A stretch of DNA of 64,000 bases from Cloeon dipterum. Taxonomy: Eukaryota > Arthropoda > Insecta > Ephemeroptera > Baetidae. The stretch's first letter is position 1. The number at the start of each line of letters is the position of its first letter. The position numbers were made by a program, and so were the translations under genes. The stretch lies in assembly GCF_949628265.1 (NCBI RefSeq), contig NC_088787.1:4454501-4518500 (forward strand), in the 5' to 3' direction. The notes under the pieces are model-generated. The model had not been told where the DNA came from. It made no database searches and saw only the letters and a program-made list of their open reading frames with translations. Shown here one piece after another: positions 13,214-64,000 of this stretch.

Positions 13214-13413
13214 AACACAATTTGATTGAACGCAAATTCGAATGCGGTGAGTGCCAGAAGAAGTTTGTTTCTTCATGTTTTCTGGCTTCACACAAAAGAA
13301 ATGCTCATTCAGTAATCAAAAATCTGAAATCATGTAAGGTGTGTGGAAAATCAATGGGGGGAAATTCGATGAAAACCCATTTATTAACTATTCATGGCAT
13401 TAGCAGTCCGTAA
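13210..13413 (+). other. out-of-frame continuation of ZF-A (two more C2H2 fingers)
   Basis: Starting at an ATG that overlaps the ZF-A stop (ATATGA), this frame encodes ERKFECGECQKKF...H and CKVCGKSMGGNSMKTH. The first matches the last ZF-B finger (FKCDQCERKFVS). It is the original C-terminus of ZF-A, displaced by one base. Separate translation is unlikely. Confidence 0.75.
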
Positions 13414-17294: not shown

Positions 17295-19002
17295 TCACAG
17301 CAACGATTCCTCGTCCTCCATTTCCGTTGAGACATGATTTAGGGCAGTTGGCAGTTCCATTTCCTCGGCACCAGCGTTGCGCTGCTCGTTGGAATTTTTC
17401 GAATTTCTCATCCTCAGGGTGAACCAGAGGTTGATAATGCAGCTCAAGACCAATAAGAAGGCGAGCGAGCCGATCAGAGCAGAGTAGTCAATTTGCCTTT
17501 TTCCGGTGAAACGTCCGTCTTCAATACATTTTAAAATATCACGCGATGGTTGAAAGTATTTCTATTTTTCCGAGGTAAATTACCTGTTTTCGGAGGTTCG
17601 CTCATGTATGACTTCGCACCGACTGCGGCCTTTAGTAGTCTGAACTTTGACTTGTACGCTGTTCCATTTTGCTCAGTCATCCAAAAGTTTCCCGACGAGT
17701 CCAAAGCAAAACTAAACGGCCAAGGGGCTTTCAGCTCTCCAACCTAAAAAGTGTAACGGACTGTTGTCATTTTAGAAAAGATCAAAGATAAAAATTGAAA
17801 AAAATAGACGCACAACTAATCAATTTAAAACGTAGACAAATGGTAAAAGTCAATCTCTAATAAAATAAAAAATATCTTATTTTAAATGATGACATAACAT
17901 ACGTCATGAAAACGCTGCTCCTGGAATGGCTGGGAAGTGTTATATGAGAATACGTAGTGTATCAACCAAAATGCAGTGTAAATGGTCCCGTGGTTGTCCA
18001 TCAGCATTCTATATGGTCTTCCAGTCCATCTTCCGATTAGTTGTAGATTTGCAGTTCGAGTTCCGTTGCGAAGTGCGGCAACGGAAATAGAATACAACTC
18101 ATTGGATTCTAAATTGCTGAGGTAGAGCTGTCTCGGTTCCTCCTTAGGGGAGAGGGCAATGGAATAGACCTTTATTCCTGGTGTGTCCACCATCCAAGAT
18201 TGGTTCCTTTCCAAACTAAAAACGATCACTCCCCTCCACGAGATGTAGGCCAAGGTTTCGTTGGGCGTTTCATCTAGCACCAAGTCGTGAATGTCATATT
18301 GAAAAGGAAAATGATGAATTAGTTCGGTGTGATCGTTGTTGACCAAGTCGATGGTCCATAGTTTTGCGTTGCATTTGGAGAATCCATTATCAAGCACCCA
18401 CAGCCTTCCAAACGAGTCCACTTCCAACCCCCTTGCAGCCTGGATTTTGTTGCAGTCGTCTCTCTTTCCCTACAAAAAATCATATTGTTGCCTTTTAGAA
18501 CAATTTTTTTTACGCTTTCGGCACAATCATTAACTCTAAAGAGAAAAAATTAATTTTCAAACTATTGTTTCACATTCATACATAAATGTGTCTTAAGAAC
18601 CTATTTTTTGTTTATGCCGACATCGTGAATGACATTGTTTTCAACGAGCACATTTGATTCTAATACTCTGCTCTATACCTATACACTTACATGCATGTCC
18701 CACGAAGGAACTGGAGTGAGCTTCGGGGTCGCGGAGGACGCGCTGCTCGTCGGCAAAGACACCAGATTCGCCGGAATGCCATATCTATACAAACTGAGGA
18801 AGATTCTTGTTCCGTAGACAGCCATGTAACGAGGTTGAATATTCTCTGGTTTGAAGGTTCTTTCATTCAAGGCGTTTGTCCTGCTTGCCTCAGAAGGCCA
18901 CTCGTAGTCCATTCCATCGGGCCACTCGAAGACCAGAGTGAAGTTGACGGCGGTGGTCAATGAAAGGTGGAGCAAAACGATAACAAATGCGAAAGAATTC
19001 AT
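17295..19002 (-). CDS. yellow/MRJP family protein, copy C, with C-terminal membrane anchor
   Basis: Exons 19002-18691, 18469-17903, 17743-17584 and 17518-17295 join to 420 codons. A signal peptide (MNSFAFVIVLLHLSLTTA) precedes the yellow domain: DYEWPSEASRT, PSWDMH, GRLWVLDNG, HDLVLDE, KAAVGAKSYMSEP. The fourth exon is 74 codons. It encodes a 24-residue hydrophobic segment (YSALIGSLAFLLVLSCI, then INLWFTL) followed by basic RMRNSK and an acidic tail ending EDEESLL. This predicts a type I membrane protein with the propeller outside. Most yellow/MRJP proteins are secreted, so this anchor is unusual. Copies B and D end just after the exon 3 junction. The phase-1 splice (g|ac to Asp) is clean, supporting a real exon. 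Confidence 0.9.
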
Positions 19003-22507: not shown

Positions 22508-24348
22508 CTAGAAAGTTTCCAGAACTTTGTTTTTCAAATGAGAATATCTTTTATGTTTAGCCAGGAAAGACAATGAAACGAATTTCCTTTCACACTGATC
22601 ACATTTGAATTTGCGTTCAATTAAAAGGTGGGTCATGGCCAAGTGGTTTTTCAAGTTTGCAAAATTTGTAAAGCTTTTGGGACAGTGCGCGCAGTGCTTC
22701 GAATTCAGTCTCTTGTGAATGCGATCCAAGTGGATTTCCAAATGTTTTGCACTTTTGTAGTACCTTTTGCATTGCTCGCACTTGAATCCAAGTTTTTTGT
22801 ACTGCAAACCACGCCAGGAATTGTTTCTGTGTTTCCTTTTCAAGTGGTAATCCAACAAAGCAGGTATTTGAAATGACTTTGGGCACTTGTCACATTTGAA
22901 AAGAGTTGTTTTGCATGTTTTCAAGTGAGATTGGTACAAACCTGAGCATTCAAATTCATTCTTGCAGCGCTTGCAGTACAATATTTTCAAATGGCGACTC
23001 ATATTCCCAACAATACCATCTGACTTACAAATTGAGCACACCCGAAACTTATGGTTCTCTCTTGCATGTTGTGCCAGATGCTGCTCGGTAGCAAACATTT
23101 TGTGGCATTTTTTACACTTGATCTTCTTTGGAAAATGCAAACGAGAAACGTGAATAGACAAATCACTTTTAAATTTAGATTTGTACTGGCAATGGTGGCA
23201 ATTGAAGACTTTTGCTTTGTCTTCTTCCTTGTGAACAGCATCAAAGTGGACCCTCATTTCAGTTTCGGATTTGAAATAACAGAGGCAACCAATCAATTTG
23301 CATCTAACGTAAAACTCGGCATGGACATGACGAATATGCTTTCTGACGATACCGGACCTCCGAAACTGTTTCTCGCAAAAATTGCACTTGATCAGTTTCT
23401 TTCCATGCGCTTCCTTGGTGTGGCTCTGCTTTTCCTCGAAAGTGTGGAAATATGTGGCACAATTGTGATAATCACATCTGATGACATTCTCGTGCATATA
23501 TCTCACGTGGCTACTAATTTTTGCAACAATTTGTCCACAGTAGAAACATTTCCTCCCGCTCTTTCGACCGTCAGACCTTGCCTCGTTCTCTCCATTTTCT
23601 TCCTCCTCGCTTTTCGGCAGCTCAATCTTCTCCAGCTGAACCCAACACTGCTCTGCTTTCCCTCCTGCAACAATTAATGCAGGCCAAATTACTGAATAAG
23701 TAGAAAGTAATGTTAAAATAACATTATTAAATAATGGAACTATGTATTATTTGGAGCTAGCTAGAAATTCCAATGGTGATATATATACAGTCTACCGCAG
23801 CATAATTTTTTTCCAATTTTCGCAAAATATAAAATATAAATTTACAGTCAGCATTTCTCTGTTCAAAATATATTGATTTGAGTTATCTTCTGTCGTAATA
23901 ATCACTTTCTTGCCCATTCCAAATCCTTTCCTCTGTTCCGCAACTACGCGTAATTTTTAGTAGTAATTTGCCACACAGTTCTAAAAATAAATTTAAAAGC
24001 TTTGGTGTGTACCTCGATATTTCCTCCTCAGCTCTTTCGCCACGTCGTCCAAATAGATCAGATCTTGCGGCCACCAAACCAAAGCTTCGAGCTCGGAGTC
24101 AAATCTAGCCAGAAACCTTAAAAAAATTGTCATTAAAATCATCCAAATGGAATCCGTCAAGCTTACTCGGCGTGCCAGATGCAGAAATTGCAAATTAGGT
24201 CTTCATCCTCGATTTCCTCTGCAAACTCGTAGCCGCAGACGTTCAAGAACCAAGTCTGCAGCTTCTCCTTGTCCAATTGGACAGCCTGGACAGCGCCGTC
24301 CGCCGTCGGACGCTCGCAAACGCGGCAGAGCGGCTTCACAAGCGGCAT
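22508..24348 (-). CDS. ZAD-type C2H2 zinc-finger protein ZF-B
   Basis: Three exons (24348-24167, 24116-24013, 23664-22508) join to 480 codons. Exon 1 and 2 lengths and phases equal those of ZF-A (182 and 104 nt). The ZAD-like module has CRVC and CNFC pairs and WWPQDLIYLDDVAKELRRKY. Exon 3 has an acidic linker and about ten C2H2 fingers, from CFYCGQIVAKISSHVRYMH to CDQCERKFVSLSFLAKHKRYSH, ending KNKVLETF. It is a nuclear DNA-binding factor by family. ATG 24348 is preferred because it aligns with the ZF-A start. The gene is intact where ZF-A is broken, but it stops one finger earlier than the displaced ZF-A C-terminus. Confidence 0.9.
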
Positions 24349-26997: not shown

Positions 26998-27765
26998 AAA
27001 AAAAAGCTTCTTATATAAACAACAATATAGTACGTAGCGAAATTTCTTTGTTGACTCGACAAACATTAATTTTTGAATGGATGGTGTGTATGAGAGGCGA
27101 GAGAGACCGGGGCCTGTTTGGAAAAGTCAAGCCAAGTGCGAATGTAAGAAGAAAAACTCCGTGGAATTCGGACCAAAACACGCTTGCCAAGTATTCCTAC
27201 CTGCGGCCTCTTGCTCCTCGGCAGCTGCGATAAACCAAAACAACAACAGCCAAGATTGTAAAAAATCTTTAGAAAAAAAGCAATTGGCTAGAAAATAATA
27301 AGGCAAAAACGTCTATACTGATTTAGTTTATTTTAAATATGTCAGACAGTTCTTAACAAAATCCAAGGAGAATGATTCAAAATTATTATGGTTATGGGAG
27401 TTATGAAAAGAGCACACCAAAATACCAGAGGCTGCATTTTCGGATTTTCAGGCTTGTTAAGAAAAAACATTTTTTTTATTGTTGCTAAACATTTATTTTT
27501 TTCAAACAATTTCAAGCGTTGAATTTATGCAGCACAATCATGTCATTTGCATATTCTTACGTCCTAAAAATTTTCTAACTGATATACACATGGTTTGCTA
27601 TGTTTTACGGTTTCAAAATTGCTGTACGAAGCTTTCTTCGTGGAATTTTAAAATCTTTAACTAAATCTAAAAGTTTTTAAAAGTTATTTGGTTCCAAATT
27701 TCTTTTCCATTTCAGTCGTGCTGCGAAAATTGGATTCTGGTTCAATTTACACCTTGGCGAGAGCA

Positions 27766-29070
27766 TTAAATTTCTTTCCAATTCGGCTTAACTGGATGTT
27801 TGTGATTTCTCTTTTGATTGTATGTCATTTTTTGTTTGCACTCGAGGCATTCCCACGTAATGGCATGACATTTTGATATGTGTAGCCTCAGATTCTTCTC
27901 TGTCGCAAATAAGTTTGGACAATGATCGCATTTGATTGGTTTTGAAAAATGCTTGCGTAAGATGTGATCTTCTAAACAATCCTTTCTGAATGAAGAATAA
28001 TGTGGACAAATATCGCACTCGTACATTTTCACTGGCTTTTTCGTTTGCTCATCCTGCCCATCGGTCTTTAGTTTACGTACCAATGTTTTCACTCCGTTTT
28101 TATTTTCAATCTTGTGTGTGTAGTTTTTTTCGTTTTGGTCTTCCGATTGTTGTGCTCTATTCTTGTGAGTGCACAAGTGAGTATAAATGTTGCCACATTC
28201 CCTGCCATTGCACACCTGGCAGACGCCCTCATTATATCTTTTTTTATTCTGATTCTCATTTGCTTTCCTTTTCTTGGCTCTTGAGTTTTTCTTCGCGTCC
28301 GCTGAATCGGTATTCAGTTTCCTCTTCCGCTTTTGGCCTGAATATCCACTTGTAGAAGTTTCTGTAATGTGAAAATTTCACAAATTATAATTTGAAGCAA
28401 ATAAAATGATTTGAAAATGTGTTATTCATTTTTTTGCCATCTACATATCAATTGAAGAGAGGCTTTCTTTCTTTTACTGACGAATATCACGAAAATATTT
28501 CTCACCAGGTTCATTCCTGCTGACTGAGACTGCAGATTCAACCGTTGAATCCGTAATTTGATCTTGAATCGCAACACTTTGGCTCTCACAAATTCCCTCT
28601 AAAATATTATTTTTTTTTACTTTAAAAGAATTTAATGAAATCTTTCGAATGAGCGAACCTGAAGCGGGACAAACTCCAAAGTTAGAGGAAGCAACTGAAT
28701 TTGGTTCTTGTTCGAATATCTTTGGATATTCGGGCGGTAAAGCATTCGCGTTCGAAACAACCACGTTTTCATTCGCACGCGGAACCTGTCTTGCGGTCTG
28801 TTCGACTTGCGGCCAATTGACAGCCACGACCACTGATGCCCAACTTTCATTCCTCCCCAGCTGGTCGTCCGTTTGGTCAGAATTATGTTCATTTGGAGGT
28901 AATGAATTCTCCAAATTCAACTCGCGATCCCTGAAACATTGACATAATATCAGAAGTTCATATACCTGATAAAGGCCCTGGACGATTCCTTACAGTATAC
29001 ATTGAGCGCATTCGTCACCGACTATCTTCACTCCTTTCAGGCATTGAACGCATTTTCTTTCTGAATCCAT
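27766..29070 (-). CDS. C2H2 zinc-finger protein ZF-C
   Basis: Four exons (29070-28994, 28930-28659, 28598-28506, 28361-27766) join to 345 codons. Exon 1 encodes a tiny two-pair cysteine motif (CVQC...CAQC) that may bind zinc. Exons 2-3 give a low-complexity acidic linker. Exon 4 has a basic stretch (GQKRKRK, KKNSRAKKRK; probable nuclear signal) and four finger-like units: CQVC...H-H, YECDICPHYSSFRKD...H, IKCDHCPNLFATEKN...H and a degenerate WECLECKQKM...H. Likely a nuclear nucleic-acid-binding protein. It lies in the left copy of a tandem duplication; its partner is ZF-C'. The small first exon is supported by the same donor (gtaagg) in both copies. Confidence 0.82.
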
Positions 29071-29099
29071 TGTGGCGAGCCCAAAAGTCGACGAGTTTT

Positions 29100-29730
29100 C
29101 CTTCAAGCGTAGCCCGTCTGATTGTGAGAATGAAAATCTTTGCGGGAGAATATTTGGTTCACCGACTCAGGGGAAAGTGTTTTTTGTATTTTGCTGAAAG
29201 ATTCATGGAATTTCTCAAAGTATTGACATTTTTTGGCTCGAATTCCTGGAATTGTTCTCCACCACGAAAATCCTCTTTCTAAAGTAATACCTTTTTCTTC
29301 CTGCTTTTGTTGACACAATGATGGATTGAAATTTTTATCTTGATTAATGATCTCCGTTATTTCAAAAAATATAAAAGAAGTTATTTCTCACCATACCAAT
29401 ACACACGCGTGATGTGGTTATTATTCTCTACTTACGAAAATCCGATTGCAGCGTCCACTGCCTGTCCCAAAGAAATTCAAAGCCCAGCCGCCTTTTCATA
29501 GGGCCACGCGACCAAACAGTTTCCCTTTTTTCAAACTCAAATTTTGGCGTGAGATCCGGCAAATCAACGCCTTTCAATGCAAAACGAAGTCTGAAGCAGC
29601 CAAAATCACCCTCCGGACCATTATATAGCTGATTAAAAATATTAAATGAAATTTTTTCGTGCAGACTTTCGGTCAACGATGGGACGGAGGTAATCTGATT
29701 CATAAAAAAAACCCTTGTTTGTGCCAATTC
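29100..29730 (-). other. conserved open stretches upstream of ZF-C, possible exons
   Basis: Two open reverse frames lie here: 29318-29103 (ends FSRKDFHSHNQTGYA) and 29727-29428 (includes GCFRLRFALKGVDLP and VWSRGPMKRRLGFEF). The second has an acceptor-like ttttaatcag near 29633 and a donor-like gtaagt near 29450. Both are in the duplicated block, but the right-copy equivalents (34540-34760, 34870-35080) contain frame changes. No family was recognised. They may be upstream exons, leader sequence, or relics. Confidence 0.3.
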
Positions 29731-30939: not shown

Positions 30940-33900
30940 AATTTGAATCTACGCAGTCTTTCCTGAACGCCTGCTCTTTCTCATTGGAATTTCATTCATT
31001 CAGTGGTGGCGCTGTCGGCCTTCTTCTACCCTCCCCCCTCTTCCAAACCATTCATTGCCGCTGACGTCATTCGAGTCGCGTGCCACTTTAGTGGTGGGTT
31101 TCATAAGTTGCTTGATCTGTAGCCGGAAAACTGCACTGATAATAGAAAATCAATTTTGAAAGTTTAGAGTATGGGTACTAAACGCACTATGTTGTTTTAA
31201 ATTATATTTATTAGAAATTTAGTTACAAACGAAGGAATTACGCTTCTTAGTCGATCTAGAAAATTCATACAAAGACAAAAATATAAAGAAGAATTGCCCG
31301 AAACCTAGATTTTACAGCTAAAAATTGCTTGTCTACTTAATGAATCTGGAGAAAATAATAAAAAACGAAAGGATGGAATTACAAATATCAGTTCGGCAAA
31401 CAAATTTATGCTATTTAGCATTTTAATCATTTCTGTACTTAAAGTTATCGATTTTTCTACAGCCTTACAATTATTAACTTATTTATTAAGTATTATTAAG
31501 TTTTATTTCACCTCCAGACCTATCTCATATAATACAAATCGAGGCCAGAGCGAAGGCAAGAGCATGCACTCTCTCTTCTCTTCCTTTCAAACCCAATGGC
31601 GCGTCGGGGAACAGAATTACCATTTGTCAATTAACTCCCAAGTCACAAAGCTCATTTACGTTATTTTTTTAATGTCCTAGATATAAATTTCTGATCGATG
31701 AATATAGAGTACACCTCAGCTGATGGTGAATTCATAGTAATTAAAACTATTAACAAGCAAAAGAGGTGGAAAAAGAATCTTCGGTGAAATGATGCATTGT
31801 TAATTATGCAATAATAAAATTTAGCAGACAAAAGTAATTTTGAATAATTATTTCTTTAACACGGGAGTTTGTTTTCTCACACTCTCCACCAAATTTCAAT
31901 TTCCAGTGCGATACCAGAGACTTATTTTCTTCCAGAATGTCACAAAACTGGCAATCATTAAAGTCGAGCAATAGTTTAGATTTTAATTAGTTTTCTGACT
32001 GGGAGAAGTCATTCGTCCTTTCCTTGGTTGTTCTGTCGGCTGCCTGCCTTTCCCCTCCTCCAGTCCATTCATCAATGCCGCTGACGTCACATGAGTCGCG
32101 TGCCACTTTGTTGCGGGTTGCAAAAGCTGCCCGAACTGAAGGCGGAAAAATACACTTTTGCATATAATGAATAGTTGGCGGTTAAAAAGGTGTTTAAAAA
32201 ACATTTTATGAAATCAATCGATTTAGAAAATTGAAAAATGGAAATGTACTTTGCTGATTTTGAGTCAAAATGTAAAAACAAAATTAAAAGGGGAAAATCG
32301 TCTTTAGACTTTTATGCACTTCATTAAATAATTTGGCTTAAAAATGCTTCGCTTCCAACTGGCTGGAATTGAGCCAGCCACCGCTTCAAAACTACGCGGC
32401 TGAGGCCTTTACTGCTTTATTGAGAGTGTCAAACCTCCACCTTCTGTTCCAAACTTCAACATAAAACCTAGAGATGGCGCCATAAAATGAAACAAAGAGC
32501 AGGCTTAAAAATATCAATTAATTGTTGAATCGGAAAACTTTCATTTTTAAATGGAAGATGTAAATTACAGGCGAGAGAGACCGGCCTGCTCTCGAGCGAA
32601 GCGCAAATGAACGAAAAAAACTCCGTCTTTTATACAAAGTAAACGAGATGGCAAAACACGCTCGTCAATTATTCTTACCTGCGGCCTCTTTTGCTCCTCG
32701 GCAGCTGCGATAAACCAAAACAACAAAGGCCAAGATTGTAAAAAAATCTTTAGAGAAAAAAGCAATATGCTGGAAAATATAAAGATAAAGGCAAAAAAGT
32801 CTATCGCTGATTGATTTTATTTTAAATATGTAAGACAGCTCCTAGGAAAAGCCAAGGAGAAAGAGTCTAGTTTATTTACAGTGCGTGGTTATTAAAAGAG
32901 AATACAAAAATAGCAATGGCTGGAAAACAGTACCATTCTAAGAATAAATTACAATATTTAAATTTCATTCTTTTTCAAGTGTTGATAAAATACAGCACAA
33001 ACTTGTTGTCATAAATTTTTAAATTATTTTCTTACGGATATACACATGGCAGCTTTATTTTTCACTTTTAAATTAAATGACCATCAGTATAATGGCTGTA
33101 AAAAGCTTTCCACGTGCAATTTTAAAGTTTTAACTTTTCTAAAAGATATTAAAAGTTGATTAATTCTAAATTTCTTTTCCATTTCAGTTGCGCTGCAAAA
33201 ATTGGATTCTGGTTCAGTTTACACCTTGACGTGAGAGTATTAAATTTTTTTCCAATTCGCCTTAACTGGATGTTTGTGTTTTGTCTTTTGATTGTATGTC
33301 ATTCTTTGATTGCAATCGCGGCATTCCCACGTAATAGCATGACAATCATTTACGTGTCTCCTCAGATTTTTCTCTGTCGCAAATAATTTTGTACAAAGAT
33401 GGCAAGGAATTATTTTTTCCAGAGGTGGAGAATGCTTGCTTACGATGTGATCTTCTAAACGATCCTTTCTAAACGAAGAGTAATGTGCACAAATATCGCA
33501 CTTGAAAATCCTCACCGCTTTTTTCATGTGCCCATCGGTCTTTGGTACACGTACCAATGTTTTCACTCCGTTTTTCTTTTCAATCTTGTGTATATAGTTT
33601 TTTTCGTTTTGGTCTTTCGATTTTCGTGCTCTCTTCTCGTGAGTGCTCAAGTGAGTATAAATGTTGCCATGTTTCCTGCTGTCATTGCACACCTGGCAGA
33701 CGCCCTCCCAATATCTTTTTTTATCCTGACTCTCATTTGCTTTCCTCTTCTTGGCTCTTGAGTGTTTCTTCGCGTCCGCTGAATCGGTATTCGCGTTCCT
33801 CTTTCGCTTTTGGCCTGAATATCCACTTGTAGAAGGTTCTGGAAATTAAATTTTGAAGAACAAAAAACATGCTTTGAAAATATGCTATTCTTTTTTTGTC

Positions 33901-35595
33901 ATCTACATATATCAATCGAAGAGAGGCTTTCTTTCTTTACTGACGAATGTCACGAAAATATTTCTCACCAGGTTCAATCCTGCTGACTGAGACTGCAGAC
34001 TCAACCGTTGAATCCGTAATTTGATCTTGAATCCCAGCACTTAAGCTCTCACAAATGCCCTCTAAAATATTATTTTTTTCACTTAAAAAGAATTCAATGA
34101 AATATCATTCGAGTGAGCTAACCTGAAGCAGGACAAACACCAAAGTAAGATAAATTAACCGTAGTTATTTGTTCTTGTTCGAATGTATTTGGATATTCCG
34201 GCGGTAAAGTAATCACGACAACCACGATTTCATTGGCACGCGGATCCTGTCTTGCAGTCTGTTCGACTTGCGGCTCATTGACAGCCACGCTCACTGGTGC
34301 CAAAGTTTCATTCTTCTCCGTTTGCTCAGAAATCTGTTCATTCGAAGGTTCTGAAATCTCCAGCAAATTCAACTCACGCGCTCAGAAAAACAATAATATA
34401 ATATCTGAAGTTTAATATATATCTGAAAAAGGCCCTGGACGGTTCCTTACATTATACATTTGAGGCATTCATCGTCGAGTTCCTTTTCTTCTATCAGGCA
34501 TTGAACGCATTTTCCTTCTGCTTCCATTGTCGCGAGCCCAAGTCGACGCGTTTTCCTTCAAGCGTAGCCCTTCTGAGAATGAAAATCTTTGCGGGAGAAT
34601 AATGGCTCATCGACTCAGGGGAAAGAGAGTTATTTCTATTTTTTGCTGAAAGATTCATGGAATTTCTTATAAAGGTTTGACATTTGTCGGCTCGAATTCC
34701 TGGAATTGTTTCTCTACCACGAAAATCCTCTTTCTAAAGAAATACCTTCCTGCTTTTGTTGACACAATATGATGGATGGAAAGTTTTATCTTGATTAATT
34801 CTCTCGTTATTTCAAAAAATATAAAAGAAGTTATTTCTAACCATATACCAATACGCGGGATGTGGTTATTATTTTCAAGTTACAAAAATCCGATTGCAGC
34901 GTCTATACTGGCTGCCCCAAAGAAATTCAAATCCTAGCCGCCTTTTCAGTAGAGGGCCGCGTGACCAAACAGTTTCCCTCTTTTCCAAACCCAAATGTTG
35001 GAGCAAAACCCGGTAAATCAACACCTTTCGATGTAAAACGAAGTCTGAAGCAGCCATAATTACCCTTCGGCCCATTACAGGGATTTTTGTGCAGACTTTT
35101 ATGGGGGCCTCTCGGCCGGCGGTGGGACGGAGGCCACTTTAGATTTTTTTCAGAGCAGAATTTTACGTCGCGTTTAATTAAATTTAGATTTTTATTCTAC
35201 GACCAATAGCGCAGCCGCATTATTAATTTTTAAAAGCCAAAAACGTGGTATGTTACAATTTCAAACTTTTGTAATTGGGGCCCAGGTAGGGCCCTGTGGG
35301 TCGTAGGGCGATGATTCTGGCACTGGTCGATGCCCCTTGGTGGGGCACGTCTGTCCGTGTGAGGGTTTCCAAAATCAGACCGTTTTTCAAATCACTACAA
35401 ATTTTACGCCAAAACTTTGCAAAATATTTAAATAAATTTATCTGCTGGAAAAAAGCACGTACTAATTTAAATTACCGCCTCTGTGTAAATAATCATTATT
35501 GCATTAATGCAATTCAATTTTAAAATCTAATATTTTTAACTTTTTTGTTCGCATTTCACAATATTTTATCAATATGCCGGGAGATAGTTGAGCAT
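30940..35595 (+). repeat. right unit of tandem segmental duplication
   Basis: The second unit is shorter than the left mainly because it lacks ZF-B and parts of 26.1-27.0 kb. It carries two GACGTCA repeat blocks (31045, 32060), the ttgagccagccaccgcttca block, the gagagaccgg block and ZF-C'. Between the units, 30076-30939 is unique AT-rich sequence with no gene recognised. Confidence 0.75.
33240..34527 (-). pseudogene. ZF-C' zinc-finger gene, reading frame broken between exons 1 and 2
   Basis: This is the duplicate of ZF-C: exon 1 34527-34451, exon 2 from 34380 to 34123, exon 3 34061-33969, exon 4 33838-33240. Lengths of exons 1 and 3 are identical to ZF-C, and exons 2-4 are open and in phase with each other. 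The exon 2 acceptor region has lost two bases (aactcacgcg against aactcgcgatcc), so the normal splice gives a stop within a few codons. The fingers are otherwise complete (FKCDICAHYSSFRKD...H, IPCHLCTKLFATEKN...H, WECRDCNQRM...H). Likely a recent pseudogene, or a gene started from another promoter inside exon 2. Confidence 0.65.
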
Positions 35596-36281
35596 TTCAG
35601 GAATATCTATAATACTGTGCAAATCGTCGGACAAAATAACACACTTAAAAGGCGTTCAATCAGTTGTGCAGATTGAAACCTGATGAATTAATTGGCAAGT
35701 TCGGAAATTTCATGAGCTAAAAAGAATTACATATTGCAGAACGTGACGTCATAACAAAAGGTTTGTAAAGGAGTACAAGAAAAAATTAAAAAGTAGTCCA
35801 AAAAAGAGTAATAACGTAAACAATTTGAGTTTAAAACCAAGCAAAATATATTCTTCAAATGCAACTTGAACTATTTGTTGGGATTTAAGTCGAAATAAAC
35901 ACTTTTGAAGTCCTTAAGTTCTTAGCTCCTTTACTCGCTCCCTTAATGTTAACGCGCCATAATCATAATCTGATAATCTCGTCTCTCGTCATTGTTTCTA
36001 GAAGCTTTCAGATGAAAGCGTAGCCGGACTGACGCAGCCAGAAATTGACCTGAAACACGAATTCTAGTCTCTGCCAGCAGCAAGGTTAGTTCTTTTCAGG
36101 TCTCTAAACCCTCAGGGTATCACTCAAGAATCGTCTAAAAACGGGGTGCGCTCGCAACAACATGCGCCTTTTAGAACTTGAAAAAATTCTTGCGGCGAGG
36201 CGGCGACGTGCGTGTCAACTTTCCGATTTTGATCTTTGATTTTTGCGATTTTTGACTTTTGGGTTCAATTTAATTCGACAG
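35596..36281 (+). promoter_or_regulatory. upstream region and non-coding leader exon of the UHRF1 homologue
   Basis: A short leader ends at the donor gcagcaag|gttagt near 36085. The next acceptor (ttcgacag) lies directly before the ATG at 36282. The leader contains an ATG followed after two codons by TAG, so it is non-coding. Thus no ubiquitin-like domain is encoded just upstream. The remaining 35600-35950 is AT-rich without recognised motifs. Confidence 0.5.
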
Positions 36282-39200
36282 ATGAAGCGTAATCAGCGTG
36301 TGCCGTTGCTTGAGGCAGCAAGGAAAGGGAACAGCTCGGGAATGGCGACGAGGAGCAAGAAAAACGCGGCGGCCAGCGGAGGCTTTTTTGAAGTGGGCTT
36401 TTTATTTAGTGGAATTAAATAATAGTCGTTGGGCAATGACTCTGCAAATTTCACAGGTCGAGGACGCTGTGCTCTGGCAAGACAAGACGAGCGGCGAGTG
36501 GCACGAGGCCTCCATCGTGGGCGTCACCTCCGACGAGGAAGGAAATCCGACCTTCCGCGTCCGTAACAAACGGTCAGTTTGCTTGAAATATTGTTTATAT
36601 TTTTGCTAATTATTAATTGGGACACAAAAAGGTCTGGAAACGTGGAGAACTCAGTCGGGCTGGAGTTTCTAGCTCCGGGCAGGAGCGTCGAGCTTGCCGC
36701 CAAGGACCTGGAAAAGGGCGTGTGCCTGCTGGCCTTCATGCCGACGACAAACAATCAAAGGGGATGGTAAATAAGACCTTAAATCATTTTTAGAAGGGTT
36801 CAAATTGCTCTTTTCAGGTTCAAGGTGGTAGTGAGTCGAGTGGAGAAGGCGGCGAACGTCGTCAAAATGGCGTTTGGAACGGTGTTCATCTCGTCTCGGG
36901 AACAAATCAAGGACCAGCGCATCTTCTTTGTCCACAATGCGCTCAAATTTCCAGAATTGGTGCCGCGCGAGCAGTGGACCAACGAAGGAGACTGGATCAG
37001 CCTCAGGAAGCGTGAGTATTTTTTATTTTATTAAAAATTTTCTTCATTAAGTAAATAGAATTTATTAAATTTAAATAATTTGCATTTGTTAGGCTAATTA
37101 TTGAATGAAAATTTATATATCGTCTAAATAAAAAAAATATAATGATTAAATTTCAGCGTGCGATCGTTGCTTCGAAGACCCGAGTGTGAAGTGCCGAGCG
37201 TGCTGCTGCGTTGTCTGCGGCGAAAAAGGTGGAGAAAAAGCGCTAATCACGTGCGGCGATTGCATAAACTCATGTCACGTGGCCTGCGCCAACTCAGCAT
37301 CCAAAAATCTCGACAGTGACAAGAAGTGGTGAGTCTCTTTTGACTGATATAATCACCAGATTATCTTTTTGACTGTTTATCAGGTAAAGCGGGCCAGGAA
37401 ATAACCCTATTCCCTCGTTTATATCAGTTACGCCCCTTTTTGACGTTCAGATTTAATCATTCCAATTAATTTCTCATAGACTTTGTTGAGCGTGAAACCG
37501 AAATGATCCGCAGGCGAAGAGGGGGGCGTAACTGCTGAATTTTATTTATTCTCAGAAGCAGTTCCCAAGAAATCAAACTCATCTTATATTGTTTCTATTT
37601 GTCTCAGGTTGTGCACAGGTTGCTGCTTTGTGGAGGAAGAAATGCAGGCCATGTTCGGCAGCAAGGATGGTTCCAAGGCCAAGGAGGAGCCGAAGACTCC
37701 AAAGACGGCTGTCCCGCCTGTCTGTGCGGCCGTGGTGGTGCCAGAAAATCACTTTGGGAAAATCCCCGGCGTGCCCAGCGGCCGACTCTGGGCCTCCAGG
37801 AAGGACGTGAGTGTTTTTAGCCTTGAATTTGGTTTTAATTGGGTGTCAGGTGTGCTTCTGGGGCGTGCACCGGTCGCTGGAGGCGTCCATGTGCGGCGCC
37901 ATCAACGTCGGAGTGCAGAGCTTGTGCCTGTCGGACAGCCTCGAAGGCGACTACGACGACGGACACTGGCTCGAGGTGGCGGGCGGCCGCGACTCCAAGA
38001 CCAGACCCCGCAGACTGGCCGGACTAGATCTGTAAAATTGGTTTTTGCCGTATTTTCGCGATTACTTGAATTTATTTCTTTCGCAGCGCGCTGGCGCAGT
38101 CTTGCTACGCTGGACTGAACGCGAAAGAGGGCGCCGTGTCCGTCGACTGGATGAAAGGCCTGCCCATCAGACTCGTCCGCGGCCACAGATTCGGACAGGT
38201 GTCCCGATTCGCCCCTCCTGAGGGCTACAGGTCCGCTTTTTTAATTTCTTTTTTGATTTAATTTGCATTCAACGCGGTTTAAACAGGTACGAGGGAATTT
38301 TCAAGGTGAAAAGGTACTTCAAGAAGGGCGCAGTGTGGAGGTTTGAGCTGAGGAGAGACGACAATGAGCCTCCTCCGTGGTCCTTGAGCGGCGTGAATTT
38401 CATGATGAGCAGGAGCGTTGGCTTCCTTGAGGTAATATTTCACTTTTTTATCTTAAAATTCACTTAATTGTGCAAGAAATACTCTACAATTTAACCCTGT
38501 GAGTCGTTTAGAGTCGGAACAACCTGAAATTCTACTAAATATATTTCTAAAAAATCAACGAAAGCGATAAAATTGGGTTGTGTGTTATTGCTTACCATTC
38601 TCCTTTTTCTGATGAGTAGAAAACCAATTATTCTTATTGCAGTTTCAGAGACGGTCTATTGATCTAAAACTGCGCCAAACACTTTTTTTTACCAATATAA
38701 CTGATTGAAATGAAAATTTAAAAAATTACGAATCAAAATTTAATTTCTCCAAGAATTCTCTACGCTGATTCGCTGAACGCATGACAAAATCTCCCGCGCA
38801 ATACACTTACGCCGTTGCTAGGCAACCGTGGAAGCTGCTGACATGCGCGTTGCGTCCAGCCAATCAGCGGTGAGGGTATTTTTAGAAAAGAAATATCGCT
38901 CTTTTCTTTGATATGCATGCTTTTATTAATGTATTACTCGATTTTGCAGCTATAAGACCTTAAAAATGATTTCCGTTTTCCAGGGTATCATTGACGAGAG
39001 GCCACTGAAGCGGAAGCTGCCGGTGGAAGGAGTGACGTTGAAGAAGAAAAGGGTGGCCTACGTCCTTCCCCCGACCGTCAACGCCCTGATCAAGGAAGAC
39101 CTGGCCAATGGCAGCAACTGGGAGGACCTGAGAGCCCACCTCCAGTTTGGCTACCCTGTGAGTTTGAATAGAAATATTCTGTCCTTGAAATCCCTCTAAA

Positions 39201-39581
39201 TTTAAACCTTTTCAGGACTTCATCGCTGCCCTGGTCAAGAAGTTTGCTTGCTGCGTCTGCAAAGGGGTGGTCAAAGAGCCAATCACCCTGTCCTGCGGCC
39301 ACAACGCTTGCCTCGTGACTTTTAAATCATTTTTAATCAAACTGAAAACTGAATGTTAATTGTCTTTGTAGCTCTGCTACCAAAAGTTGGTTGCCGAGGC
39401 TTTGGACAAGTTGCGCTGCCCTCGCTGCACTTGTTGCAATGCTGTTGTCCTGGAGGAGGATGCTGGGGTCAACCGCCACCTGGACCAGATCCTCAACGCC
39501 CTTCTGCCAGGGTACAACCCAAAGGAGGCGGCGCCCAAGCCGTTTTCTCTACTGCTCAAATCCAAGCAGCCCAAAAAGTAG
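36282..39581 (+). CDS. UHRF1-like E3 ubiquitin ligase (TTD-PHD-SRA-RING), divergent readers
   Basis: Twelve exons join to 626 codons: 36282-36392, 36457-36572, 36632-36766, 36818-37011, 37157-37328, 37608-37806, 37850-38031, 38087-38230, 38287-38431, 38984-39157, 39216-39314, 39372-39581. Domains: tandem Tudor about 36-185 (FFEVEDAVLWQD, EWHEASIV), zinc knuckle plus PHD about 187-250 (CDRC, CRACCCVVCG, CHVAC, WLCTGC), SRA about 290-466 (NHFGKIPGVPSGRLW, GVHRS, EQ-type LAQSC, RRDDNEPPPW) and RING about 536-580 (CCVCKGVVKEPITLSCGHNACLLC, CPRC). UHRF1 reads hemimethylated CpG and H3K9me and recruits DNMT1. Human UHRF1 is 793 residues and has an N-terminal ubiquitin-like domain, absent here. Aligned by eye, several ligand-contact residues are replaced. 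AATAAA is at about 39789. Confidence 0.93.
38795..38880. promoter_or_regulatory. X-box plus CCAAT cluster inside UHRF1 intron 9
   Basis: The largest intron of the gene (38432-38983) contains GTTGCTAGGCAAC at 38814-38826, an RFX-type inverted repeat, and agccaatcagcgg about 30 bases on, within a locally GC-richer patch. This resembles an internal promoter or enhancer. Motif-based only. Confidence 0.4.
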
Positions 39582-40511
39582 GAAAAGCATCTCGTTTCTT
39601 TTGTAGTCTAGTTTTTCATCTGTGAATGCAAATGAGAGTCAACTTTAATTTTTATAAACAAGCAAGGACATAGGACATCATGATGTCCTGAGACATTCTA
39701 TTATTATGCAAGTTCAAGAATCTTTACACCAATATTGGAAGAAGTATTTGAATTTTTGTTCTTTCAAAAATGTCTGACAGTTGTAACGAATAAATCGATT
39801 TTTGTTTGATAATTTTGACTTATTATTTCAAATTGAATGTCTTAAGATTGTGGAACTAATCAAAAGGAACATTTGATTCGCTATTTTCTGGTTCTTAATA
39901 TTTTAATTTAGAATAAAGGTCGCTTTCTTCCTAAAGATTACATTGAAATATGAAATATTTCGGTGCTGGATTGAAAATAGACAAATAATAATTACTTCTG
40001 AAAAAAAAAATTATAAATTGCTAATGCCGCACGAAATCTGACGAAATCTCCAACCTCTAAAATAACTAGGAGAATTATTTCTTTTCTATAGTTTTTGGGA
40101 AAATCCGTTTTGATTATTCTAAATATTTTACCCAGACAAAGCAAAGCTTGGTATTTCGAAAGGCAACGGTTTTTGGTCTGAGCCATTTCAAAAAGTGGTA
40201 CAACAGCTTCGTCAACCAATCACAAAAAAAAACGATTGTTCTAATTGGCTTATTCTTGACACTGTGCGTTTCTGCCTATTGCCTCTCGCGCTGCTTTCTC
40301 GATCTCCAAAGAAGTTTGGCAACCTAGCACGCTTTTCATAGATCTCGGAGACGAATTTTTGGGCCAAACAAACGAATCAGGAATATTTTTCTAGCATTCT
40401 CTCTGAAATATTCCAAATAACCAGGATATCTTTCCTCTCACGAATCTATTGAGTTCAGTTTTGCGGCAGCAGAGTCAAAACACGCGAGTCACTCCTCAGG
40501 AAGCGAAAAAA
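39582..40511. other. intergenic between UHRF1 and ZAD gene E
   Basis: Holds the UHRF1 3' untranslated region and AT-rich spacer. No gene is recognised. From 40435 on it belongs to the left arm of the inverted duplication. Confidence 0.5.
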
Positions 40512-42789
40512 ATGCCGTTGGAAAAGTTCATAGAGGACATTGGATGGGGAATTTGTTTTTTTTGCAAACACTTCAAGCACTGCTACTCTTTGCCCCTTCT
40601 GACGCCTGTTCCACTCTGCAAGGCCTGCATAGACAAGTATATTATTGGGAGAATTATTTTTTAAAAATTTTTAATTAACCTTTTCTTAATAGGGAGCCCA
40701 TTTCGAACCCCAATTTCGGCCCAGGTTTCTTCACGTATTTGCAAAGCTTAACTCCACTGTCCGCGATCAGTAAGCGAAAATAAATCAAATTTAATATAAA
40801 AGCGATTAAATAACTATTAAATTAGCAAATAATGCGGAGGAAGACAGTAGGAAAATGTGTCGTCTATGCTACGTAGCCAAGGGTACCGTGCTCGTGTCCG
40901 ATTGGGACAACCTCCTTCCGACGCTCGACTTGTACAATGATAAAATGGTCCAGCTCGAACCTGGCGACTTTCTTTGCAGCAACTGCTTTCGGATCCGTGG
41001 GCAAGCACTAAAGTGAATAAAACTCTTTTAAAAGCTGACCATTTTCTTATTTAGTTCCAGAGAGATGGAAGAAGCTCCCATTATGGACGTGGAACCTGCC
41101 GCTGGTAACATTAAAAAACCATATTTATTTATCTTCTAAAGTGGCGTGTCATGCTTTTCAGCTGTGGCCGTGCCGAACGAGGGAGAAATTAATTTTTTTC
41201 TTCCCGCCCCTCAGCAGCCATGCCGTAAATTTTCGGAATCTTCTGTTCCTTGCTTTTACTGCGGACTAGACGCTAATGGAAAACCAAAACTAATGACACG
41301 CCGGAGTATACCGCACCACTTTTACATACGCCACAAGTTTGAAGATGCATACAAGTGCCTGAACCGCACCATGTGCTCGATTTACTTTGGGACATTGGAA
41401 GAGAGAAAAGAGCACACGAAACTCCGTTTCGAGCAATACCTACAAAGGCCCATCCAATGTTCCTTGTGTGATAGCAGATTTGACAGAATTTCTCATTTAA
41501 ACAAACATCAAGTGGAAATGCACAAGGATCTATTCAAATGTTCACAATGTGACCGGAAATTTCAAAATGAAGAAAAGGTTCGCAAGCACAAGCTGATCAG
41601 TGGACACGAAAGCAAATGACAGATATTTTGGTTTCGGGGACTTTAGATTTTATTACCTTTGTTCACGCAATAAAATTGTAAAAAGCAAGAAGAAATTCCA
41701 CACGAATGGTGCTTAATGCGAGGTTCTTATTCACCCCTCACATCAGCAAATTGTATTATGATTATGGAATAATCTAGATTCAGAGTAAATTGCGTTCGCC
41801 ATAAACGAATAATTTGTTTGCGTACTCAAGAAAATGCCCATCGTCAGCTACCGTAATTGAATTTCAGTCTTTATGGTACTTTTTAAACTCGATATGTATG
41901 ATTTCGTCTTTTTTTTTGGAAGAGTAAATCAAATTATTGTAATAGTAAGCGAAAACGCTACTAAAAATATTCTTTTCGTAAATAACGAAAAGAAAAGAGT
42001 TTACAAAAATCACAGTAAAATATTCTGTATTTTCACCTCAAAACTGAAAACAATTAAATATATTTAATTTGAGTAGTGAATCGATTCCTGTGAGGTTAAT
42101 TAGATGAATCACTCGTCCGACAGTTTGGCAATCAAATATTTGCCGAAAATCAGTGAAAACCGTCATTTTTGGCAGTGTTTGCGGTCTGAACCAATTAAAA
42201 AGTGACACAAGGACGCCAGCCACCAATCAGGAGAAGGAAGGAGCTCGTCTCTGATCTCTGGTTGGTTCACCTGAGTTCTTTGTGGCACTTTAAAAACAAT
42301 AATTAAGGAGCATTCGATTAGCTTTGCCGCAGAAGTCCATGTTATTGAATGTCCGGTGAACAATATTAAATAAAAAAGGGGGGATTAAGATGTTAGGTCA
42401 TGTTTATTCGTCTCTAATTATAAAAATTTATTTTTTTCTTTTTGGTTAGACTGACAAATTATTCAATTATAAGAGAGTGCGATGGTTTTTTTAATGTGAT
42501 TTCTTCTTTTCCTTATTTACACCCTGAATCCCCGCGCTTCTTTAGCAGTTGAATTGACAGTTTCGTCTTAAATTTGAATGATAAAAAAATTATTGTACAT
42601 ATCTATATCTGGCTATCTAATCGCAACGTTTTTACTCTAAATAGGCAGTCGTCCCTTAACGTTTCCTTAATCTTCTGATTTTCCGCGATGCGTTTCTCTT
42701 TCGATGAAGCTGTGAAAGAATCGATTTTGAATTTTGATTACGTCATATATAGGAATAAGGAAGGGAACTTGCCTGCGAATGATGGTGCA
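40435..42789 (+). repeat. left arm of large inverted duplication
   Basis: Runs as the reverse complement of 61639-63999. It includes ZAD gene E and the non-coding 41620-42789. In 42060-42360 I see about one difference from the right arm, close to 99% identity. The inner end near 42789 holds, antisense, the end of a decayed ZAD gene whose remainder lies beyond the right arm. 41620-42789 has no intact gene. Confidence 0.9.
40512..41619 (+). CDS. small ZAD/C2H2 zinc-finger protein E
   Basis: Five exons (40512-40636, 40693-40769, 40826-41012, 41055-41104, 41162-41619) join to 298 codons. Exon 1 has two cysteine pairs (CFFC...CKAC). Exon 3 has a ZAD-like module (MCRLCYVAKGT...LCSNCFRIRG). Exon 5 has an atypical finger (CFYCGLDANG...HHFYIRH), then CSLCDSRFDRISHLNKHQVEMH and CSQCDRKFQNEEKVRKHKLISGH. 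Likely a nuclear DNA-binding protein. A second full copy (F) lies inverted at 62.8-63.9 kb. Flanking DNA and exon 1 are almost identical between copies, while exons 2, 3 and 5 differ, mostly by amino-acid changes. Confidence 0.87.
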
Positions 42790-61476: not shown

Positions 61477-61780
61477 ATGTGCCGTCTTTGCGGAGTGGTG
61501 AGAGAGAGGCACCGTGCTTGTGGCCAATTTGCAGGATTGCACAAGGGACAATCAATATATTTACCTGCCGATGCAGAACTTGTACAATAGCATAGCGGTT
61601 GGGTCACCCTGGAAATGGACGACGTTCTCTGCATCGGCTGCATCATCATTCGCGGGCAAGTTCCCTTTCTTATTCCCTATATGACGTAATCAAAATTCAA
61701 AATCGATTCTTTCACAGCTTCATCGAAAGAGAAACGCATCGCGGAAAATCAGAGGATTAAGGAAACCTTAAGGGACGACT
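61477..61780 (+). pseudogene. decayed ZAD exon pair
   Basis: Starts MCRLCGVV, aligning with MCRLCYVA of genes E and F. After frame changes it reads LEMDDVLCIGCIIIRGQ, matching LEPGDFLCSNCFRIRGQ. A following intron-like gap and a short second exon (cttcatcgaaagagaaacg) mirror exon 4 of E. Internal stops make it non-coding. It straddles the inner end of the right arm of the inverted duplication; only its downstream part is present, antisense, in the left arm. Confidence 0.75.
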
Positions 61781-64000
61781 GCCTATTTAGAGTAAAATCG
61801 TTGCGATTAGATAGCCAGATAGATATGTACAATAATTCTTTTATCATTCAAATTCAAGACGAAACTGTCAATTCAACTGCTAAAGGAGCGCGGGGATTCA
61901 GGGTGTAAATAAGGAAAAGAAATCACAATAAAATAAAACCATCGCACTCTCTTATAATTGAATTTGTCAGTCTAACCAAATAGAAAAATTAAATTTTTTT
62001 AATTAGAGACGAATAAACATGACCCAACATCTTAATCCCCCCTTTTTTTATTTAATATTGTTCACCGGCCATTCAATAACATGGACTTCTGCGGCAAAGC
62101 TAATCGAATGCTCCTTAATTATTGTTTTTAAAGTGCCACAAAGAACTCAGGTGAACCAACCAGAGATCAGAGACGAGCTCCTTCCTTCTCCTGATTGGTG
62201 GCTGGCGTCCTTGTGTCACTTTTTAATTGGTTCAGACCGCAAACACTGCCAAAAATGACGGTTTTCACTGATTTTCGGCAAATATTTGATTGCCAAACTG
62301 TCGGACGAGTGATTCATCTAATTAACCTCACAGGAATCGATTCACTACTCAAATTAAATATATTTAATTGTTTTCAGTTTTGAGGTGAAAATACAGAATA
62401 TTTTACTGTGATTTTTGTAAACTCTTCTTTTCGTTATTTACGAAAAGAATATTTTTAGTAGCGTTTTCGCTTACTATTACAATAATTTGATTTACTCTTC
62501 CAAAAAAAAAAGACGAAATCATACATATTGAGTTTAAAAAGTACCATAAAGACTGAAATTCAATTACGGTAGCTGACGATGGGCATTTTCTTGAGTACGC
62601 AAACAAATTATTCGTTTATGGCGAACGCAATTTACTCTGAATCTAGATTATTCCATAATCATAATACAATTTGCTGATGTGAGGGGTGAATAAGAACCTC
62701 GCATTAAGCACCATTCGTGTGGAATTTCTTCTTGCTTTTTACAATTTTATTGCGTGAACAAAGGTAATAAAATCCTAAGTCCCCGAAACCAAAATATCTG
62801 TGCAGGAAAGTCATTTGCTTTCGTGTCCACTGATCTGCTCGTGCTTGCGAACCTTTTCTTCATTTTGAAATTTCCGGTCACATTGTGAACATTTGAATTC
62901 ATCCTTGTGCATTTCCACTTGATGTTTGTTTAATCTAGAAATTTTGTCAAATCTGATATCACAGTACGAGAAACATTCGAATTGCCTTCGCAGGTATTGC
63001 TCGAAACGGAGTTTCGTGTGCTCTTTTCTCTCTTCCAATGTCCCAAAGTAAATCGAGCACATGGTGCGGTTTAGGCACTTGTATGCATCTTCAAACTTGT
63101 GGCGTATGTAAAAGTGGTACGGTATACTCCGGCGTGTCATTAGTTTTGGTTTTCCATTAGCGTCTAGTCCGCAGTAAAAGCAAGGAACAGAAGATTCCGA
63201 AAATTTACGGCATGGCTGCTGAGGGGCGGGAAGGGAAAAATTAATTTCTCCCTCATACGGCTCAGCAACAGCTGAAAAGCATGACACACGTCACTTTAAA
63301 ATATAAATTAAGTTATTTAATTTAATACCAGCGGCAGGTTCCACGTCCATAATGGGAGCTTCTTCCATCTCTCTGGAACTAAATAAGAAAATGGTCAGCT
63401 TTTAAAAGAGTTTTATTCACTTTAGTGCTTGCCCACGGATGCGAAAGCAGTTGCTGCAAAGAAAGTCGCCAGGTTCGAGCTTGACCATTTTATCATTGTA
63501 CAAGTCGGGCGTCGGATGGAGGTTGTCCCAATCGGACACGAGCACGGTACCCTTGGCTACGTAGCATAGACGACACATTTTCCTACTGTCTTCCTCCGCA
63601 TTATTTGCTAATTTAATAGTTAATTAATCGCTTTATATTAAATTTGATTTATTTTCGCTTACTGATCGCGGACAGTGGATTTAAGCTTTGCAAATACGTG
63701 AAGAAACCTGGGCAGAAATTGGGGTCCGAAATTGGCTCACTAATAAGAAAAGAATTAACAATTTTTTAAAAAATAATTCTCCCAATAATGTACTTGTCTA
63801 TGCAGGCCTTGCAGAGTGGAACAGGCGTCAGAAGGGGCAAAGAGTAGCAGTGCTTGAAGTGTTTGCAAAAAAAACAAATTCCCCATCCAATGTCCTCTAT
63901 GAACTTTTCCAACGGCATTTTTTTCGCTTCCTGAGGAGTGACTCGCGTGTTTTAACTTGACTCTGCTGCCGCAAAACTGAACTCAATAGATTCGTGAGAG
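61639..64000 (-). repeat. right arm of large inverted duplication (runs off window)
   Basis: Reverse complement of 40435-42789. It reaches the last base of the window, so the outer boundary is not seen. The arms are separated by about 18.8 kb. 61781-62810 is non-coding. Confidence 0.9.
62811..63918 (-). CDS. small ZAD/C2H2 zinc-finger protein F
   Basis: Five exons (63918-63794, 63739-63663, 63607-63421, 63378-63329, 63271-62811) join to 299 codons. Architecture and phases are as in gene E. Exon 1 is identical to E over 125 nt. Differences cluster in exon 2 (K to N, N to D, G to C, T to N), exon 3 (L to H, L to P, Q to K) and finger 2 of exon 5. In that finger CSLC became CFSYC through a three-base insertion, which changes the usual CX2C spacing to CX3C and may weaken zinc binding. 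The last finger CSQCDRKFQNEEKVRKH is unchanged. Confidence 0.87.

Follow-up and report, generated by a model that had tools for sequence, protein, structure and literature searches.

A UHRF1 derivative under purifying selection and without a detectable ubiquitin-like domain in Cloeon dipterum

A 12-exon UHRF1 homologue in an inverted duplication

UHRF1 takes part in copying DNA methylation patterns when cells divide and, in the usual account of the pathway, works through a ubiquitin-like domain (UBL), PHD, SRA and RING in one chain. The window, the whole stretch of 64,000 nucleotides analysed here (C2:4454501-4518500, from a 190 Mb assembly in ten contigs), encodes a homologue of this protein on the plus strand at 36282-39581. 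As originally predicted, its 12 exons close in frame: they have GT-AG borders and join into 626 codons without a stop, and the top solved relative of the product is human UHRF1 (9lpk_A, E 6.3e-61). The features of the locus are listed below, with residues numbered as in human UHRF1.

36000..36084, plus strand: putative untranslated leader exon, its 5' end uncertain, donor GTTAGT at 36085
36282..36392, plus strand: exon 1, start codon right after the splice acceptor, at the position of the paralogues' UBL exon 2
36457..36572, plus strand: exon 2, tandem Tudor with F152H in a WHEA motif (alignment)
36632..36766, plus strand: exon 3, tandem Tudor (alignment)
36818..37011, plus strand: exon 4, second half of the tandem Tudor (phmmer to 6b9m and 3ask)
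37157..37328, plus strand: exon 5, PHD finger with CGDCI for CDECD, zinc ligands retained (Pfam, alignment)
37608..37806, plus strand: exon 6, end of the PHD, short linker and start of the SRA (alignment)
37850..38031, plus strand: exon 7, SRA with V446E, G448S, G464D, G465S, Y466L, Y478V and a shortened RPR finger
38087..38230, plus strand: exon 8, SRA core
38287..38431, plus strand: exon 9, C-terminal part of the SRA
38984..39157, plus strand: exon 10, linker 5' of the RING
39216..39314, plus strand: exon 11, first half of the RING, zinc ligands kept
39372..39581, plus strand: exon 12, second half of the RING, conserved PGYNPK tail and stop
36315..42789: inverted duplication, left arm (arms about 95% identical)
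61639..64000: inverted duplication, the part of the right arm inside the window; beyond the window end the arm runs on as locus L033, where the second gene copy lies

Pfam recognizes the SRA (PF02182, SAD_SRA; 71.5 bits, cut-off 30.7) and the PHD (24.7 bits, cut-off 24) in the window protein, and two RING models match it, both under their cut-offs. The Tudor region scores 21.1 bits with PF12148 (TTD), under the cut-off of 29.1; phmmer aligns it with 3ask (E 2.2e-13) and with 6b9m (E 1.2e-4). The zinc ligands of both PHD and RING are kept in the alignment, in agreement with the original prediction; in the C-terminal RING, all eight zinc-ligand columns hold Cys or His (MAFFT), and MAFFT sets a three-residue insert before the last Cys, which we read as C-P-R-C. 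The leader had been called non-coding, consistent with a putative leader that holds no in-frame Met in its phase-0 frame in any of the four aligned UBL-less copies (the window gene, L034, L037 and L038). These same four copies keep the CAGCAAG/GTTA leader border and the splice acceptor directly 5' of the ATG.

Within the inverted duplication, 40435-42789 matches 61639-64000 at 95.3% and 36315-40434 matches L033 at 95.0%, with a spacer of about 19 kb between the arms. Adjoining the UHRF1 derivative, a frame at 41140-41619 weakly matches the C2H2 zinc finger (22.6 bits, under the cut-off of 25.2), and the corresponding position of the other arm (62811-63290) holds a 159-aa frame. Other duplicated segments in the window include an inverted pair overlapping C2H2 frames (12152-13309 and 22537-23677, 81%), a direct repeat (27617-29623 and 33091-35077, 83%) and a pair overlapping a match to major royal jelly protein (8398-9292 and 17562-18436, 74%), genes for which are present in the window.

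UBL-bearing and UBL-less copies

Protein searches of the genome, with the best candidates scored, returned 85 matches for the window query, 79 for L006 and 70 for L008, a few of which are plainly other RING or PHD genes. These searches replaced a genome search with the Pfam SRA model, which gave three loci, missed the window's own split SRA and thus undercounts; a search with the Pfam TTD model was disregarded, as it gave zero matches though the TTD of L008 exceeds the cut-off. Besides the window gene, three genes have the order UBL-TTD-PHD-SRA-RING in 13 exons each, and at least seven loci, the window gene included, are UBL-less, all on C2. Single-exon scraps occur at C5:1.87 Mb and C2:1.24 Mb. 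The UBL-bearing genes in the same genome fit the idea that the window gene might be an additional copy, with a canonical gene at another locus.

L006, C2:3.70 Mb: 716 aa, UBL-bearing
L007, C1:20.70 Mb: 723 aa, UBL-bearing
L008, C2:35.48 Mb: 692 aa, UBL-bearing, divergent
L034, C2:3.45 Mb: intact, 626 aa, UBL-less
L033, C2:4.52 Mb: exons 2-12 open, cut within exon 1, UBL-less
L035, C2:3.48 Mb: exons 1-5 missing, UBL-less
L036, C2:3.79 Mb: reduced to Tudor exons and part of the PHD, UBL-less
L037, C2:1903501-1907500 (1.90 Mb): intact, 445 aa, UBL-less
L038, C2:1935501-1939500 (1.94 Mb): intact, 448 aa, UBL-less

Six of the seven UBL-less loci are arranged as inverted pairs (1.90/1.94, 3.45/3.48 and 4.49/4.52 Mb), the two members of a pair lying 25-29 kb apart, and L036 stands alone. 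In L037 and L038, exon 6 is joined straight to exon 10 in frame, so that exons 7-9, encoding the SRA body, are lost and a Tudor-PHD-RING protein remains. The end phases of window exons 1-11 equal those of exons 2-12 in L006, L007 and L008.

The UBL had been predicted to be missing in or near the first exon, and profile searches uphold this. Profiles were built from the paralogues' two UBL exons (A and B) plus the human sequence, and recover the UBL in all three UBL-bearing paralogues: with each paralogue held out in turn, E values for L006, L007 and L008 were 1.1e-16, 1.8e-16 and 3.9e-6 for exon A, and 1.5e-12, 5e-11 and 0.029 for exon B. Of these paralogues, L006 and L008 were given to Pfam, which recognizes the ubiquitin family in both. 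In the window, the best full-profile match to exon A has E 3.8 and lies within the gene on the opposite strand (best E 1.8 over all profile versions, same place), and that to exon B has E 0.025 and lies 10 kb downstream (0.016-0.66 by profile version). In the 2 kb before the start of the window gene, the matches listed are all on the minus strand, with E 2.7 or weaker. Exon B is the weaker probe, given the E of 0.029 for held-out L008, and a strongly diverged remnant of the second half could escape it. Among the matches listed in the genome protein searches, UBL parts were matched only in L006, L007 and L008. The window gene is thus without a detectable UBL.

In a tree of 395 columns (IQ-TREE, rooted on human UHRF1 alone), the UBL-less genes tested (window, L034, L033, L037 and L038) form one clade (100/98), within which window, L033 and L034 (99.9/100) and L037 and L038 (100/100) group together. 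L006 and L007 also group (99.9/94), and L008 is unplaced (38.6/60 and 26.1/56).

The window protein has been under purifying selection. Its intact twin L034 lies 1.04 Mb away, and the two differ over 626 codons by 28 synonymous and 18 nonsynonymous changes (dS 0.068, dN 0.0125, dN/dS 0.183, Fisher p 2.1e-8), where p values here and below are per test, the copies compared come from one assembly and gene conversion can lower divergence. Their introns are 7.9% different. By part, dN/dS is 0.15 for the Tudor part (p 4e-5), 0.06 for the PHD (p 0.007), 0.24 for the SRA (p 0.035) and 0.30 for linker plus RING (p 0.041), the last two, for which the dN/dS check had been proposed, being individually weak. 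The SRA-less version is likewise under purifying selection (L037 versus L038 without the SRA body, 445 codons, dN/dS 0.31, p 3.8e-5). Other comparisons gave 0.15 for L006 versus L007, 0.60 for window versus L037, 0.22-0.25 for window versus L033 over exons 2-12 (0.10 to 0.52 by part, the PHD part not significant at p 0.37) and 0.28-0.29 for L034 versus L033. The partial L035, for which only exons 6-12 were used, gave 0.23-0.27 against the window gene, 0.22-0.24 against L033 and 0.41-0.48 against L034; L036 was left out of all ratios and residue counts.

These values bear on whether the window gene is a recent duplicate turning into a pseudogene. Decay of this kind is visible in the subfamily, where L035 is without exons 1-5, L036 is down to Tudor exons and a PHD fragment and L033 is cut inside exon 1, but the window gene and L034 are intact across 12 exons at a dN/dS of 0.18, and the pseudogene reading is already disfavoured and very improbable.

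Reader residues in the Tudor, PHD and SRA domains

Aligned to human UHRF1 (31% identity, 561 columns), the window protein has F152H, Y188 and Y191 replaced by N and S, D334G, D337I, Y466L, Y478V and NKR changed to RPR. Residue losses in three domains had been predicted by eye, and they fare differently when the paralogues are brought in. In the Tudor cage, the changes are present as described, and F152 is replaced by H, R or N, with Y188 and Y191 also changed, in all eight paralogues with a Tudor region, the window gene included. In the SRA, Y478 is replaced by M, L or V in all seven paralogues with this domain, being Met in L006 and L007. That all listed losses are peculiar to the window gene is rejected on these grounds: L006 and L007 also have an altered Tudor cage and a replaced Tyr478, and these changes do not set the window gene apart. 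Of the further SRA changes, Y466L and Y478V align as predicted, whereas T479A is unassignable, T479 falling in a two-residue gap. The finger does read RPR in place of NKR, and its region is also shorter by about 10 residues.

Other changes follow the tree more narrowly. L008 and the window clade have in common a changed V446, a changed Y466 and a lost or altered finger, whereas Tyr466 and the NKR finger are intact in the other two UBL-bearing paralogues, L006 and L007. Found only in the UBL-less clade are D334G, D337I, Q330L and M332T in the PHD (with R and E in place of G and I in L037 and L038), and G448S, G464D, G465S and N489R with a shortened finger in the SRA. The predicted replacement of D334/D337 (CDECD to CGDCI) is confirmed: the acidic H3R2 contacts of the UHRF1 PHD are absent in the window PHD, which keeps its zinc ligands and has Asp for E335. 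The set formed by the UHRF1 5mC pocket and NKR finger is likewise not found in the window SRA (Y466L, Y478V, G448S, N489R), and D469 and R491 are kept. On the alignment, the altered PHD contacts, SRA backbone glycines and finger, together with UBL loss, are the marks of the UBL-less clade.

Published mutants help to weigh these positions. Loss-of-function mutants are described at Y188/Y191, D334/D337 and D469/R491 in PMC12704277, and PMC5012860 reports that G448D abolishes DNA binding and N489A abolishes hemimethyl selectivity. Across these eight sites, six are changed in the window protein (D469 and R491 being kept), with replacements that differ from the published mutations. Because Y188 and Y191 are changed in the canonical-like L006 and L007 too, the window protein may have replaced them and still be functional in this respect, and the retention of D469 and R491 suggests that some DNA contact may remain.

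A working hemimethylated-DNA reader with a re-engineered pocket would be consistent with these two retained residues, with the SRA fold, with the few nonsynonymous SRA changes (dN/dS 0.24, p 0.035) and with the Met in place of Tyr478 in L006 and L007, which presumably work. Against it, pocket, thumb and backbone contacts are hit jointly by V446E, G448S, G464D, G465S and Y466L, about 10 residues are missing from the finger and the related pair L037/L038 has dropped the SRA body altogether. We consider such a reader improbable.

Candidate role, methylase genes and comparison with known systems

The reading that we prefer, at a probability of roughly 60%, is that the window gene encodes a UHRF1-derived RING ligase or adaptor on chromatin that is uncoupled from hemimethylated-CpG reading and belongs to a recently amplified UBL-less subfamily. 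A UHRF1 gene would have been duplicated with its introns and then have lost its UBL, leaving a translation start right behind a splice acceptor at the place of the paralogues' second UBL exon. The copy would then have lost the PHD contacts for H3R2 reading and the SRA contacts of base-flip pocket, finger and backbone glycine, with selection continuing to act on its folds, RING and C-terminal tail. Its product, a putative RING-type ubiquitin ligase or adaptor on chromatin, would no longer read hemimethylated CpG. PMC7430637 reports that the UBL is essential for H3 ubiquitylation on nucleosomes. The product would not be expected to bring about this UBL-dependent modification of H3, by which DNMT1 is recruited, and canonical maintenance methylation would be left to the UBL-bearing copies. 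Speaking against this reading are the retained D469 and R491, the weak individual tests for SRA and RING, the higher dN/dS of L034 versus L035, L034 versus L033 and window versus L037, and the RING scores under the Pfam cut-offs. As intact derivatives are kept by selection, they may have taken on another job. Both halves of the original suggestion, that the gene is a derivative whose role has changed or that it is an extra copy, fit this constrained UBL-less gene, the changed role being what the sequence comparisons lead us to propose.

A variant role is that of an antagonist or decoy of UBL-bearing UHRF1, which would keep contacts with the nucleosome, E2 or partners and dampen maintenance methylation, perhaps in the germline only. 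Loss of the UBL and reader contacts with continued constraint on Tudor, PHD and RING would suit such a role. So would the coding CpG o/e, which is 0.87-0.92 in the four UBL-less genes measured and 0.66-0.74 in the three UBL-bearing genes, and is a weak hint that the former are less methylated in the germline and more narrowly expressed; G+C also differs (0.56-0.59 versus 0.49-0.55). The histone-contacting Tudor cage, however, is already changed in every paralogue with the region, and we regard an antagonist as unlikely, if less so than a re-engineered reader.

The original prediction called for a search for DNMT1, and genes of this type are present. The genome has 35 matches to DNA_methylase and, among the best candidates scored, two to RFTS. 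Both RFTS matches come with methylase motifs I and IV (L009/L027 at C2:6.90-6.91 Mb and L010/L028 at C1:5.54 Mb), and these look like two ordinary DNMT1 genes. Motifs I, IV and VI were found by pattern in seven of 12 further methylase loci fetched, and when pieces of L019, L022 and L029 were compared with solved structures, the top-ranked proteins were all named DNMT1. Same-score DNMT1-type methylase pieces occur at five loci (L019, L020, C1:37796866, C3:6665545 and C5:31830998), two of which have the following form.

L019, C1:5725000-5734900: DNMT1-type methylase in pieces, motifs I, IV and VI
L020, C2:34362800-34372700: DNMT1-type methylase in pieces, motifs I, IV and VI

The two are 98.4% identical over 8 kb on different chromosomes, and L019 lies between a 337-base array of 12 copies and a stretch of 173-base repeats; this type is a multi-copy and possibly mobile unit. 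A second family, of long units that are 90-99% alike and hold DNMT1-type methylase pieces, comprises L021, L022 and L024 (C2:36.2-36.9 Mb), L023 (C4:6.64 Mb) and L026 (C5:1.14 Mb). Of these, L022 and L023 are 99.0% identical on different chromosomes, and L022 adjoins a 491-base tandem repeat. L029-L032 resemble L019 at 72-77%, and L031 has a stop beside motif VI. UBL and RFTS are partners in the canonical maintenance pathway. A genetic conflict in which the amplified UBL-less UHRF1 genes, in inverted pairs on one chromosome, regulate, block or serve multi-copy DNMT1-type methylases that adjoin tandem repeats and in which no RFTS was detected, UBL and RFTS having been lost on the two sides, is improbable, and any interaction between the two sets is speculation.

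In the papers searched, PMC10538959 and PMC12147562 among them, no UBL-less or amplified insect UHRF1 was met. This one genome presents a graded series, from the canonical-like L006 and L007 through L008 with its changed SRA and the UBL-less window gene and L034 with changed SRA to the SRA-less L037 and L038, the last two groups having intact frames under purifying selection. With such a series one can ask what UHRF1 still does once hemimethylated DNA is no longer read, and if its ligase or adaptor work on chromatin can be separated from maintenance methylation.

The closest sequences compared to the window protein are its same-genome paralogues, and it shares the intron phases of the UBL-bearing ones. 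Like animal UHRF1, it has a putative TTD, PHD, SRA and RING in this order, the zinc ligands and the PGY tail; unlike UHRF1, it has no detectable UBL, and its Tudor cage, PHD acids, Tyr466/Tyr478, G448 and NKR finger are changed. L008 resembles it in the replaced V446 and Tyr466, the missing NKR finger and the short PHD-SRA linker, but retains the UBL, the PHD acids (as Glu) and the SRA glycines. Vertebrate UHRF2 is also a UHRF1 duplicate with a divergent role, but keeps all five domains, where the window clade has fewer. Plant VIM/ORTHRUS proteins likewise combine SRA and RING without a UBL, but have two RINGs around the SRA and no Tudor, whereas the window gene has a single RING after the SRA and a Tudor region before the PHD.
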